64,000 bases of DNA from Ignavibacteriota bacterium (GTDB lineage: Bacteria; Bacteroidota; Ignavibacteria; Ignavibacteriales; Melioribacteraceae), in assembly GCA_013112585.1 (NCBI GenBank), contig JABFGH010000014.1, forward strand, positions 1 to 64,000. The letters are read 5' to 3'. Position 1 is the stretch's first letter. Each line of letters opens with the position of its first letter. Both the position numbers and the translations under genes were made by a program. Positions 32,963 to 36,856 of the stretch are shown piece by piece. The notes under the pieces were generated by a model. It did not search any database, was not told where the DNA came from, and worked only from the letters and a program-made list of their open reading frames with translations.

Positions 32963-33048
32963 GCCGAAGTGGCGAAATTGGTAGACGCGCTGGATTCAAA
33001 ATCCAGTCTAGTTTACGCTAGGTGCCGGTTCGAGTCCGGCCTTCGGTA
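32963..33048 (+). tRNA. tRNA-Leu (CAA anticodon)
   Basis: The 86-nt sequence folds as a type II tRNA. The acceptor GCCGAAG pairs with CTTCGGT (one G-T pair). The D-arm holds GGCGAAATTGGTAGACGC, the anticodon stem CTGGA/TCCAG holds loop TTCAAAA (anticodon CAA), a long variable arm has stem CTAG/CTAG, and the T-arm is GCCGG-TTCGAGT-CCGGC. The discriminator is A and the CCA end is not encoded. It lies 58 bases after glnS. Confidence 0.96.
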
Positions 33049-33079
33049 CAATTCCCTTCAACAAAATAAATCAGCTATT

Positions 33080-33316
33080 ATGTATTTTGTTTACGCAATT
33101 AAAAGTTTAAGCAGAAATTATATTTACGTTGGTTTAACCGGCAATTTAGAACGTTGAATCTCAGATCATAACAAGGGGTATAATAGAACTACTAAACCCT
33201 ACCGTCCATTCAAAATTATTCATACCGAAATATTTGAAACTAGAATTCAAGCAAGAGAAAGAGAAAAATATCTTAAATCCGGAGTTGGTAAGCAATACTT
33301 AAAATCCATTGAATGA
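33080..33316 (+). pseudogene. GIY-YIG nuclease gene, interrupted by a stop codon
   Basis: Reading from the ATG at 33080 gives MYFVYAIKS ... YIYVGLTGNLER, then TGA at 33155-33157. The same frame continues with ISDHNKG, TKPYRPFKI and REREKYLKSGVGKQYL to a stop at 33314-33316. Together this is a complete small (about 78-residue) GIY-YIG/UPF0213-like nuclease. The stop replaces the Arg usually found after LER, as expected from CGA to TGA. It starts 31 bases after tRNA-Leu. Such genes often sit next to tRNA genes in this phylum and may be mobile. Other genes here use TGA as an ordinary stop, so read-through is unlikely. Confidence 0.85.
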
Positions 33317-33356
33317 TTTCAATTTCATTAACGATTGGTTCTAGAATTTTAATAAT

Positions 33357-33431
33357 GCCAAAGTGGCGAAACCTACAGGCAGCTAAATTCGTGCTTGCTT
33401 GCCATTTTTTTGGCAGGTCCTGCATTCGGTA
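33357..33431 (+). pseudogene. Decayed tRNA-Leu-like copy
   Basis: The left part GCCAAAGTGGCGAAA matches the 5' end of tRNA-Leu with one change, and the right part ATTCGGTACAATT matches its 3' end and flank. The middle, including anticodon and T-arm, is lost or scrambled, and the acceptor stem has two mismatches. It cannot be a working tRNA. Together with the real tRNA it brackets the GIY-YIG pseudogene. Confidence 0.7.
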
Positions 33432-33452
33432 CAATTATTTTATAATAATAGC

Positions 33453-33574: not shown

Positions 33575-34750
33575 TCATTTATGATAAACTATACTTGATC
33601 CAATCCATGTTTGATTTTTATTGAAATCAACACCCATCATTTTACCCTTACTGGTTCTCAAAAGATTATTTACCAGTATCGGTTTTTTATCCCATAAAAA
33701 CATCATTCTTATTTCTGCTTTAGAGTATCCTTCGGGAGTTTTTATTATTGGCGCGTATTCAACTTTTTTTTGAAGTATGTAATTTTGCTGGTCCTCAATT
33801 TTATTTAATGCATCTGTTTCAATATCTACTATTACTCCTGAACCGGCAAATGAAAATAACGGTTTTAAAACAAATTCTTTTAAGTTGGAAGGCAGGGTAT
33901 TAATCTCATTTAAAAAATAACATTCGGGCGAATATTTATTTTTAAAAAACGGCAAAGAGTGTTTACTGATGCGGTAAAACCAATTCGGATGTGTGATCCA
34001 TTCAACATTCAATTCATCTCTAAAATCAAAATTAAATTGAATATTCTTGTTCAATAGCTCATCAAAAATTACCCGGTTATAAATCCTTTCAATTTTTGTA
34101 CGTTTACCCTGCAGATTATAAAATAAATTTTTCCCTTCCTTTTCAATTTCGGTAAGGCACACCGTTTTTATACCTAAATATTTTTCTGTTAAATAGAAAT
34201 CTATTCTTGTTTTCTGATTCCAAGGATCTATTTCAAGAAGTATAACATTTTGCGGATCACTATTACCGATTACCATATCTCGAAATAATTTAATGTAAGA
34301 TTCAAAATCTAAATCATTGAAATATGTAGATAAATAATCTGGAATATTAAAATGTTTTTTTATTTCTTTATCCAGGAAAGCTTGATAGGCGTAAAGAGAT
34401 GGAAAGCCCTGGAGCTCAATTACTTGAGGAAGATACTCTCCGTTCTCATCAGTTGTAATACCAAAATCTATTTGAAGAAAATGAGGATGATCATTTTCAT
34501 TAGGAACAATTAAGTTTTCCGGTACTGCATTTTTTGAATGCTGCTTAAATTCTTCGGTATTTATTTCATCTAAAAATAAATGTGAAGCTTCAATTAATTT
34601 TTGGGTTAAATCCTCATCAATAAATAAGGGTGTTTCGCAAATTTTAAAATCTAAATTATTATCAGTACTTCTTTGAATGTCATCAATAAATTTTTTGAAT
34701 TTTATTTCATCAAATTCTGCGTTAAACTTCTCTCTTACTTCTTTAATCAT
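33575..34750 (-). CDS. ATP-grasp-like amidoligase, possibly circularly permuted
   Basis: I do not recognise an exact family. The 391-residue protein has a late ATP-grasp-like nucleotide segment: FVLKPLFSFAGSG (293-305), with Lys296 before a small-residue loop, and a hinge-like YILQKK (324-329). A metal-site-like IELQGFPSLYAYQ lies early (111-123), where glutathionylspermidine-synthase-like permuted enzymes carry their E-x-N site. This order suggests a permuted ATP-grasp, by inference only. It is the last gene of a tight operon with a GCS2-type ligase and another ATP-grasp (10-base gap), so it should form an amide bond in the same pathway. Confidence 0.6.
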   Translation of the reverse strand: MIKEVREKFNAEFDEIKFKKFIDDIQRSTDNNLDFKICETPLFIDEDLTQKLIEASHLFLDEINTEEFKQHSKNAVPENLIVPNENDHPHFLQIDFGITTDENGEYLPQVIELQGFPSLYAYQAFLDKEIKKHFNIPDYLSTYFNDLDFESYIKLFRDMVIGNSDPQNVILLEIDPWNQKTRIDFYLTEKYLGIKTVCLTEIEKEGKNLFYNLQGKRTKIERIYNRVIFDELLNKNIQFNFDFRDELNVEWITHPNWFYRISKHSLPFFKNKYSPECYFLNEINTLPSNLKEFVLKPLFSFAGSGVIVDIETDALNKIEDQQNYILQKKVEYAPIIKTPEGYSKAEIRMMFLWDKKPILVNNLLRTSKGKMMGVDFNKNQTWIGSSIVYHK

Positions 34751-34760
34751 TTAATAACCA

Positions 34761-35873
34761 TTAATTAATAATTCCAAGATTTGTCTGTTGAACAATATAT
34801 TCAGTCACTTTTTTTAGATCTTTAGTTTCTTTCCAGACTCTCAATTGTCTTTTTGCACCGGTTCCGTTTTTAATTATTTGCTCTATATAATCTATCTCTT
34901 TTCTACTGCCCAAATCATCAATTGTATCATCAACAAATTCCAAAAGTTCTCTAACCAGTTGAACAGAATCAACTTCCTTTTTCTTTCCGAAGTCAATCAT
35001 TTTTCCTCTCAATCCGTAACGGGATGCACGCCATTTATTTTCATTTATCAGCAATCTTCTGTATAAACGAAATCCGAGATTCTGCTGAATTAATTTATAC
35101 AATTTTGCAACCACCGCTTGTATTAATGCTGCAATGGCAATGGTTTCATCAGCAAGCATCGGAACATCACAAATTCTAAATTCTAAAGTTGGATATTTCG
35201 GATGCGGTCTTATATCCCACCAAATCTTACTTGCATCCTTAATACAATTTGTTTTTATAAGTGTATCAACATAAGATTGAAATTCGCCATGACTCGTAAA
35301 GTAATCCGGAATACCTGTTCTGGGGAATCTATCAAATATTTTTGCTCTGTATGATTTGAATCCGGTATTTGCACCTTTCCAAAATGGAGAGTTGACTGAA
35401 AGCGCATAAATATGCGGAAGGAAATAACGAGCAGCATTCATAATGTGAACAGCTAATTCTTTGTCATCAATACCAACATGAACATGCAGACCAAAAATTA
35501 AATTTGCACGCGCAACTTGCTGCATATCGTTTACAACACCATGGTAGCGCGGGTCATCTGTTATCTCTTGATCTTCCCAGCGTGAAAAAGGATGAGTACC
35601 TGAAGCAGCTATTACCAGATTTTGCTTTGCAGCAACATCAGCCAAATTTTTCCTTAGTTTGTAAACTTCATGTCTTGCTTGATGAATATCTTCACAAACA
35701 TTTGATCCGACTTCAACAACGGATTGATGCATCTCGGCTTTTACTTGTTCCTTCAATACCATTTGTCCTTCTTTCAAAATCTGCTGTATATGCGATTTTA
35801 GTTCAAATGTATTAGGATCAACTATTTGAAATTCTTCTTCGATACCGAGCGAAAATAATTTTTTATCTACCAT
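34761..35873 (-). CDS. GCS2-family carboxylate-amine ligase (YbdK-like)
   Basis: A 370-residue member of the glutamate-cysteine-ligase type 2 fold (glutamine-synthetase-like). It begins with the family signature GIEEEFQIVDP (10-20). It also has NLIFGLHVHVGI (metal-binding His pair) and SPFWKGANTGFKSYR, and later WWDIRPHPKYPTLEFRICD. Such enzymes join a carboxylate, often the gamma-carboxyl of glutamate, to an amine using ATP; YbdK of E. coli has weak glutamate-cysteine ligase activity. It is the middle gene of the three-ligase operon. The real substrates are unknown. Confidence 0.87.
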   Translation of the reverse strand: MVDKKLFSLGIEEEFQIVDPNTFELKSHIQQILKEGQMVLKEQVKAEMHQSVVEVGSNVCEDIHQARHEVYKLRKNLADVAAKQNLVIAASGTHPFSRWEDQEITDDPRYHGVVNDMQQVARANLIFGLHVHVGIDDKELAVHIMNAARYFLPHIYALSVNSPFWKGANTGFKSYRAKIFDRFPRTGIPDYFTSHGEFQSYVDTLIKTNCIKDASKIWWDIRPHPKYPTLEFRICDVPMLADETIAIAALIQAVVAKLYKLIQQNLGFRLYRRLLINENKWRASRYGLRGKMIDFGKKKEVDSVQLVRELLEFVDDTIDDLGSRKEIDYIEQIIKNGTGAKRQLRVWKETKDLKKVTEYIVQQTNLGIIN

Positions 35874-35878
35874 TATAT

Positions 35879-36856
35879 TTATTTGTTTTTTGATTTATTC
35901 GATTTTAATTTTTCATTAGCAGAAAATGAAGTCACGAAATCACCCCACGTTAAATTATTCATTCCCCTTTTATGGTTTTCGGCTCTGCGTATAGCCATAT
36001 TAGCTGCGGATTCTACAACCCACTCAAAATTTTTCTCACCAACGGAATTAACATCAGCATCCGGAGCAGGATTACAGAAATCGATTGCATAAGGAACTCC
36101 ATCTCTGATTGCAAATTCAACTGTATTAAAGTCATAACCAAGTGCATTATTTATCTTTAAAACGTCATCGGTAATTCTCTTAAGCATTTTCGCCTCAATA
36201 GGTTTAGGATTTTGAACATACCTTAAATGATGCGGCTGCCTCGGATCATATTGCATTATCCTAATATCTCTTCTATCGATTGAATAACATCTAAAGTAAT
36301 CATTAAACTCAATTGCTTCCTGAAGCATCATAACGAGCTGACCGGTTTCATTATAGGCTTTAAAAAAATCTTCTCTATTTTCAAGCCGGTAAACATTTTT
36401 CCATCCGCCGCCGGCAAACGGCTTAAAGAATGCCGGGAAACCGATGTAATCAAAAATGGAATCCCAATCTAAAGGATAGGATAAATTTCTCATAGATAAT
36501 TCATTTGTGTCATCCGGATGTGTATTTGACGGCAGTAATACTGTTTTTGGAACTGCAACTTTAATCTTTGTCGCTAATGCATTATTAAAAAATTTCTCAT
36601 CGGCACTCCACCAAAAAGGATTGTTGATAACAGCAGTACCTGAAATTGCTGCATTTTTTAAGTACCCTCTATAAAATGGAATGTCTTGAGAAATCCTGTC
36701 TATGATTACATCATAATCATTACTCTCACCTTGAATCACTTTGTCAATCTGTACAAATTCGGCAGCAATACCCTTAACTTTTTTGCTATTTACACGTTCT
36801 ACAAATGCACCGGGAAAAGTATTTTCCTGACCAAACAAAATTCCTATTTTTTTCAT
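35879..36856 (-). CDS. ATP-grasp ligase (RimK/D-Ala-D-Ala ligase-like)
   Basis: A 325-residue ATP-grasp protein. The ATP-binding lysine and glycine loop are FFKPFAGGGW (143-152), the hinge region is MLQEAIEF (177-184), and the metal site is VEFAIRDGVPYAIDFCNP, with Glu247, Asp259 and Asn262. The N-terminal domain (1-100) is a Rossmann-like pre-ATP-grasp fold. It resembles ligases that join an amino acid to a carboxylate; the substrate is unknown. It is the first gene of the operon, five bases before the GCS2 gene, and is transcribed away from sucD. Confidence 0.82.
   Translation of the reverse strand: MKKIGILFGQENTFPGAFVERVNSKKVKGIAAEFVQIDKVIQGESNDYDVIIDRISQDIPFYRGYLKNAAISGTAVINNPFWWSADEKFFNNALATKIKVAVPKTVLLPSNTHPDDTNELSMRNLSYPLDWDSIFDYIGFPAFFKPFAGGGWKNVYRLENREDFFKAYNETGQLVMMLQEAIEFNDYFRCYSIDRRDIRIMQYDPRQPHHLRYVQNPKPIEAKMLKRITDDVLKINNALGYDFNTVEFAIRDGVPYAIDFCNPAPDADVNSVGEKNFEWVVESAANMAIRRAENHKRGMNNLTWGDFVTSFSANEKLKSNKSKNK

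Follow-up and report, generated by a model that had tools for sequence, protein, structure and literature searches.

The window analysed here comprises 64,000 nucleotides of an Ignavibacteriota bacterium of the family Melioribacteraceae (positions 1 to 64,000 of contig JABFGH010000014.1, assembly GCA_013112585.1), and includes a three-gene operon that may supply the ligases for a small amide-linked metabolite. The encoded proteins are referred to as AG325, GCS2 and C391, and all three genes start with ATG; in order of transcription they are:

35879-36856, minus strand: AG325, the first gene, 325 aa, a non-permuted ATP-grasp with a predicted RimK/LysX/Ddl-like fold
34761-35873, minus strand: GCS2, 370 aa, a YbdK-type carboxylate-amine ligase
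33575-34750, minus strand: C391, the last gene, 391 aa, a permuted ATP-grasp by predicted fold

The genes are tightly spaced, with five bases (35874-35878) between AG325 and GCS2 and 10 bases (34751-34760) between GCS2 and C391. These open reading frame (ORF) coordinates agree exactly with an earlier reading of the locus made from sequence alone (the original prediction), which described three tight minus-strand genes with gaps of 5 and 10 bases encoding an ATP-grasp, a GCS2 ligase and a second ATP-grasp-like protein, and family profiles and predicted folds agree with these assignments. At the thresholds used, profile searches find a single match each for C391, AG325 and GCS2 in the window genome. 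Because homologues keep the same gene order in many Bacteroidota, the trio is not a chance arrangement.

Three ligase-type proteins

Profile searches place GCS2 above family cut-offs, give weak scores for AG325 and return no match for C391; fold models complete the picture. The family assignment of GCS2 as a YbdK-type carboxylate-amine ligase is secure: the protein scores 221.7 bits against PF04107 (cut-off 21, E 1.7e-65), 544.6 against NF010039 (cut-off 371) and 309.1 against TIGR02050 (cut-off 176.4). Its relatives of known structure are 1tt4 and 1r8g (YbdK), and it is distantly akin to plant glutamate-cysteine ligase (E 5e-4).

Taken by itself, AG325 gives low scores with the ATP-grasp models of Pfam and NCBIfam, falling below cut-off for both R2K_2 (12.2 bits, cut-off 26.2) and the rimK_fam model TIGR00768 (22.5 bits, cut-off 143.4). 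Among 31 AG325 homologues, 22 weakly match R2K_2 (best E 0.0027) and nine R2K_3 (best E 0.0019). The AlphaFold2 model predicts a non-permuted ATP-grasp with an N-terminal pre-ATP-grasp domain, and both fold comparisons place it among D-Ala-D-Ala ligases, RimK and LysX. The best VIA-align match listed is RimK 5zct_A (Z 19.6, root-mean-square deviation (rmsd) 3.6, 262 residues aligned), with LysX/ArgX at Z 18.6 and the best 50 matches listed spanning Z 16.1-19.6; the RimK ranking is weak because the RimK, LysX and synapsin structures differ by no more than about 2 Z. By predicted fold AG325 is a non-permuted ATP-grasp, its place fixed in no one clade. Four genomes (G245, G135, G162 and G326) have AG325 matches with one stop codon in the matched range, perhaps at the end of that range or in decayed copies.

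The window C391 has no Pfam or NCBIfam match in a single-sequence scan. Weak matches occur among 40 aligned homologues, to CP_ATPgrasp_2 in 12 (best E 0.0015), CP_ATPgrasp_1 in six (best E 0.0002) and GSP_synth in six (best E 0.032), and an NCBIfam scan of the same 40 gives scattered weak matches at most. Relatives stay under the PF03738 cut-off, one C391 scoring 19 bits against 29.3 when 148 genomes were searched. The AlphaFold2 model is confident, with a predicted local distance difference test score (pLDDT) of 91.1 and a predicted template modelling score (pTM) of 0.91, and a Foldseek search with it returns 25 matches at E <=0.001, all of them (homo)glutathione synthetases, GSS-like effectors, Gss, YgiC, YjfC, a putative glutathionylspermidine synthase and Cp1B. 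VIA-align scores are Z 26.1 for YjfC/YgiC (7uk6/7uk8; rmsd 3.5-3.6, 341 residues aligned), 25.1 for Gss 2io8 and 23.3-24.3 for human, yeast and soybean (homo)glutathione synthetases (human GSS 23.9). Ordinary ATP-grasps such as LysX reach Z <=8.6, spanning about residues 144-391, and 3k1t, a putative gamma-glutamylcysteine synthetase, takes a middle position at Z 13.1, below the permuted enzymes and above all others.

Comparison of 121 C391 sequences with eight YgiC/GSP_synth sequences by hhalign (P 1.9e-4, probability 47%) gives a colinear alignment of C391 residues 85-329 with YgiC residues 91-338, pairing D95 with D102, E112 with E115, Q114 with N117 and K296 with K302. D95, E112 and Q114 are invariant in the 40 aligned C391 rows. 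The C391 profile compared with only two E. coli sequences, too shallow a comparison, gives P 0.031, and a global hhalign setting with a 50%-gap rule aligns 23 columns (P 0.25). A phmmer search with YgiC against 1305 locus proteins ranks YgiC kin first and then six C391 entries, which come from four genomes (best E 4.4e-5). Since the alignment to YgiC is colinear and the metal motif lies ahead of the ATP lysine, C391 is read as circularly permuted, and the suggestion in the original prediction that the 391-residue protein carries a metal-site-like motif before its ATP loop is borne out by the alignment and the fold matches alike. Structure prediction thus returns an ATP-grasp fold, in permuted form, as opposed to a non-ATP-grasp one, and by this model C391 has the circularly permuted fold of Gss, YgiC and eukaryotic glutathione synthetases and probably acts as a ligase like these kin. 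We do not claim it as a GSP_synth member, as it falls short of the PF03738 cut-off and departs from the RxD...ExN motif.

Conservation of the trio and a fourth gene

The original prediction hinged on the trio being conserved as a unit in relatives, and a neighbourhood survey supports this. In a phylum sample of 296 genomes (GCS2 counted at E 1e-60), C391 is present in 92, AG325 in 108 and GCS2 in 103. The complete trio occurs in 84 genomes and forms a linked set in 46 of these, and in 10 further genomes AG325 is close to GCS2 with C391 apart. C391 is reported in 29 of 58 near relatives, counting a 27-residue match only in G001 and a gene split over two contigs in G013. A genome_contigs scan yields 70 C391 loci, mostly from Pedobacter and Mucilaginibacter, and including one Ignavibacteriales metagenome-assembled genome (MAG) and two further MAGs labelled Acidobacteriota or Terriglobia; 52 of these loci have a GCS2 match and 49 an AG325 match, in the order AG325-GCS2-C391 wherever all are present.

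In most linked loci of relatives a gene of about 280 aa with a class-I glutamine amidotransferase (GATase) fold lies between GCS2 and C391; it is present in 59 of 100 clustered loci and is the commonest gene immediately before C391. The window genome encodes it elsewhere:

G000:C12:59915-60727: class-I GATase-fold gene, unlinked to the operon and outside the window (profile E 6.3e-127)

The gene has neighbours of other kinds, on the opposite strand, and its translation carries CHSFQ and QFHPE motifs like its homologues. Six aligned homologues share invariant Cys107, His210 and Glu212, together with invariant GGPG and QFHPE motifs, and the homologue in locus L036 matches PF00117 at 39 bits (cut-off 22.8). 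The closest NCBIfam models, below cut-off, are named glutamine amidotransferase. The nucleophile elbow reads [FL]-[IV]-C-H-S-[FY]-Q, where GxCxG is usual in class-I GATases. Of the 17 genomes of the window's family, nine have all three trio genes and the GATase-fold gene and eight lack every one of them, and in a sister family of the same order (10 genomes) seven have all four and three have none; the GATase-fold gene therefore accompanies the trio in 16/16 genomes with it and 0/11 without. Across the phylum sample it occurs in 70 genomes, 69 of them with AG325 and 55 with C391. The best reading of this co-occurrence is that the putative Cys-His-Glu enzyme, though encoded elsewhere in the window genome, belongs to the same pathway. 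An M24-type metallopeptidase gene lies near the unlinked GATase-fold gene in four of eight loci of the window's order (L178, L179, L180 and L182), a call that rests on PF00557 in L178, and is absent beside the window genome's copy.

Two slots of the gene set appear to be filled by other proteins. An M29 search finds matches in 27 of the 296 genomes at E 1e-30, of which six genomes from five families, scoring >540 bits, form a slot type: all six have the trio, none has the GATase-fold gene, and in five the M29 aminopeptidase gene sits between GCS2 and C391. The other 21, among them several that carry the GATase-fold gene, score <=125 bits and were taken to be M29 aminopeptidases of other types. 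In 15 genomes the profiles find AG325 and the GATase-fold gene without C391, and in 14 of them a distant permuted ATP-grasp is encoded between the two; in the fifteenth, G326, the two genes are on different contigs. The distant slot proteins match the L138 protein (genome G161) over 443-483 residues and carry an R-x-D...E-x-N motif in 14/14; two of them, when scanned, resemble CP_ATPgrasp_2 at scores slightly under cut-off (PF14403 and PF04174 both sub-threshold). Profile comparison with C391 is weak (E 0.0065, probability 5.8%), and the suggested kinship of the two enzymes rests on gene order, the RxD...ExN motif and the sub-cut-off PF14403/PF04174 scores.

Proposed pathway, alternatives and neighbouring genes

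We propose that the operon supplies the ligases for a pathway that forms amide bonds stepwise and independently of ribosomes, makes a small gamma-glutamyl or peptidyl-amine metabolite and includes an amide-processing partner, a reading whose chances we judge evenly balanced. As the trio is kept or lost together with an unlinked fourth gene, its product is probably a small compound of glutathione-like or peptide-amine type. From the gene structure, predicted fold classes, permutation, co-occurrence and partner genes described above, we infer the order of steps, the substrates, the partner reaction and the product as follows. GCS2 would activate a carboxylate, which its family suggests is the gamma-carboxylate of glutamate, and couple it to an amine; C391, in the manner of glutathione synthetase and Gss, would extend the resulting acid by a second amine, which may be an amino acid or a polyamine; and AG325, a RimK/LysX-like ATP-grasp, may add a further unit or prime the acid. 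Our best guess for the GATase-fold enzyme is an amide (gamma-glutamyl) hydrolase for trimming or recycling the product, in a pairing of synthetase and amidase like that of Gss. We expect this product to be small and intracellular, either a gamma-glutamyl pseudo-tripeptide or a peptidyl-amine. The original prediction is supported in part, in the amide-ligase type of the three enzymes, the permutation of C391 and the conservation of the trio; its amide-linked product is kept as a proposal, and for its further suggestion of a thiol or compatible solute we find no positive evidence. More tentatively, and with clearly less confidence than in the pathway itself, we suggest that an undescribed small molecule widespread in Bacteroidota is made by three amide ligases and an amide-processing enzyme, with a core logic (AG325, a permuted ATP-grasp, and a hydrolase or amidotransferase) that survives replacement of C391 by the distant permuted ATP-grasp and of the GATase-fold enzyme by the M29 aminopeptidase.

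Several observations weigh against this proposal. C391 lacks the Arg of the RxD of the Gss/YgiC motif and has Gln in place of the Asn of ExN; 96 of the 121 C391 sequences fit the search pattern, and 96/96 have the Gln and 0/96 the Arg. Cp1B was inactive or far less active when the equivalent R, D, E or N was mutated (PMC12568646). The ligase activity of C391 is put no higher than probable because of these two substitutions. The AG325 model is moderately confident, at pLDDT 75.6. GCS2 has no match at 18 of the 70 C391 loci, in five of which C391 starts <1 kb from the contig start, and because it is below threshold in five of the 92 C391-positive genomes and in eight of the 14 with the distant permuted ATP-grasp it is not strictly required. 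The trio is complete in 25 genomes of the phylum sample with no pair within 5-6 kb on one contig, a count in which 'unlinked' means distance on draft contigs, so that contig breaks may explain part of it; G097 and G111 have an unlinked trio on single-contig genomes. Fisher co-occurrence values of about 1e-44 to 1e-52 come from tests that treat genomes as independent and ignore kinship. The GATase-fold gene is absent from 37 of the 92 C391-positive genomes, 31 of which also lack a high-scoring M29, and the partner could instead be an ammonia donor. Substrates, product and the activities of all the enzymes are read from family and fold.

The ammonia-donor role belongs to the strongest of the alternatives, glutaminase-coupled amidation, in which the GATase-fold protein would free ammonia from glutamine and C391 would amidate a carboxylate made by GCS2 and AG325, following the synthetase-plus-GATase logic of CarA/CarB and MurT/GatD. 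We consider this unlikely, if deserving of attention. The placing of the GATase-fold gene directly before C391 more often than any other, and also beside the distant permuted ATP-grasp, would be expected from such a couple, and the PF00117 score of one homologue, the GGPG, Cys and QFHPE residues invariant in six rows, and the amidotransferase names of the closest, sub-cut-off NCBIfam models all point the same way. Against it, the gene is missing from the same 37 C391-positive genomes and stands unlinked and alone in the window genome, its elbow differs from GxCxG, and an M29 aminopeptidase fills its slot in five genomes; M29 aminopeptidases are not known to act as ammonia donors. Three points make us prefer hydrolysis to ammonia supply: the M29 peptidase can replace the GATase-fold gene in the operon, the Cys elbow is not of the usual form, and a plant gamma-glutamyl peptidase, GGP1, has the same class-I GATase fold.

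Alternatively, AG325 might act like RimK or tubulin-tyrosine ligase, the trio adding residues to the C-terminus or a side chain of a protein or peptide. The RimK and LysX/ArgX structures that head the AG325 match list, and the weak matches of AG325 members to the R2K ATP-grasp families, for which protein modification has been proposed (PMC4431377), favour this, although the RimK ranking is weak for the reason given above. The recurrent neighbours in 100 loci, listed for ORFs of at least 70 aa, include no conspicuous gene for a carrier protein or a precursor, though short precursors would be missed in such a listing, and the trio is unlinked in the 25 genomes already noted. The fold kin of C391 (glutathione synthetases, Gss and YgiC) use small-peptide substrates, and such tail modification seems to us distinctly improbable.

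Slightly less probable still is a glutathione-like thiol pathway, with GCS2 making gamma-glutamylcysteine and C391 serving as a diverged eukaryotic-type glutathione synthetase: the fold matches of C391 to the human, yeast and soybean enzymes, the distant kinship of GCS2 to plant glutamate-cysteine ligase and the lack of a GSH-S_ATP (PF02955) match in the window genome, in a search confined to that model, would suit it, but it leaves AG325 unexplained, no thiol-using partner was seen among recurrent neighbours (no search was aimed at one), and BshC, a bacillithiol-type enzyme (376.8 bits), indicates that the genome probably has another thiol. BshC together with the missing GSH-S_ATP match makes bacillithiol-type chemistry likely and gives no indication of the usual bacterial glutathione, and it neither demands nor excludes a thiol role of the operon.

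The small-metabolite pathway that we favour is also compatible with several recurrent neighbours. In Sphingobacteriales the side of the operon next to AG325 carries two recurrent esterase clusters (PF00756), each present in 42 of 100 loci, and relatives of these recur in other families; Amidohydrolase_3 genes adjoin C391 or its GATase in several lineages (L033, L133, L137, L151 and L213). These putative esterases and amidohydrolases would cleave esters and amides, which fits a cycle of making and recycling without proving one. EstC4 was rejected as an obligatory member: a linked copy is present in some relatives, but that of the window genome is lower-scoring and unlinked, and several genomes without C391 also carry one. 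One family of the same class has a histidine ammonia-lyase gene no more than about 0.6 kb from AG325 in five of five loci (L132 3726-5231, L134, L203, L204 and L205); the gene was set aside as lineage-specific, the two copies scored exceeding the hutH cut-off and looking like ordinary HutH.

In the window the operon is flanked on its 3' side by tRNA-Leu and a class I E/Q tRNA synthetase gene, and on its 5' side by a divergent succinyl-CoA-ligase-type gene; with these as direct neighbours, no transporter or thioredoxin-like gene is attached, as had been noted from the sequence. A promoter scan, with 13 sites where 19.2 are expected, is uninformative, none of four proteins scanned matches the anti-phage defence models of PADLOC, and a plasmid search with C391 and AG325 gives no match among 72,556 records. 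The tRNA-Leu(CAA) gene at 32963-33049 has an apparent decayed partial copy of itself at 33351-33436, in which stretches of 21 nt and 20 nt recur at 90% identity 394 and 383 bases further on. Between the two, at 33080-33319 on the plus strand, is a short GIY-YIG-like frame with an in-frame stop inside, and relative L004 encodes an intact 84-aa GIY-YIG protein (PF01541) downstream of C391.

Comparison with known systems

The kinds of enzyme described here are already known; the combination of genes, the C391 family, the slot replacements and the unlinked partner seem to be undescribed. An open-access literature search yielded no paper that we recognised as describing this operon or the C391 family. 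A genomic survey by Iyer and others from 2009 reportedly predicted many operons of ATP-grasps and other amide ligases with peptidases, and may list part of this set. Amide-ligase gene sets elsewhere make cofactors, protectants or antibiotics. About one third of the sampled phylum genomes keep the present set (C391 in 92/296, AG325 in 108/296), and we found no product on record. With the fold of C391 now predicted with confidence, the four enzymes from cultured Pedobacter and Mucilaginibacter are open to direct assay.

C391 most resembles E. coli Gss and the peptide-spermidine ligases YgiC/YjfC. Like them it has a predicted permuted ATP-grasp fold over nearly its whole length (Z 25-26), its metal-motif Asp and Glu and its ATP lysine align colinearly with those of YgiC, and its pairing with a GATase-fold enzyme parallels the synthetase/amidase arrangement of Gss. 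Unlike them, it is only 11-12% identical in structural alignment, leaves PF03738 unmatched or below cut-off, and has neither the Arg of RxD nor the Asn of ExN, which is Gln here. The hydrolase candidate also differs from that of Gss in being a separate gene of another fold, the Gss amidase domain having a fold other than that of class-I GATases.

GCS2 is a clear member of the YbdK family, above its cut-offs, although none of the partner genes is among the annotated features in 12 kb around E. coli ybdK. AG325 is like RimK, LysX and ArgX in predicted fold, and unlike the RimK family in falling below the rimK_fam cut-off. In the fungal E-64 pathway the ATP-grasp Cp1B and Cp1D act in succession as stand-alone amide ligases with known substrates (PMC12568646). 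That pathway differs in that its second ligase is an ANL enzyme, and the portion of the paper drawn on here mentions no GCS2 (PMC12568646). The structure of Cp1B resembles those of homoglutathione synthetase and YgiC/YjfC (PMC12568646), and Cp1B is itself (9cjn) among the structural matches of C391, at Z 22.8.

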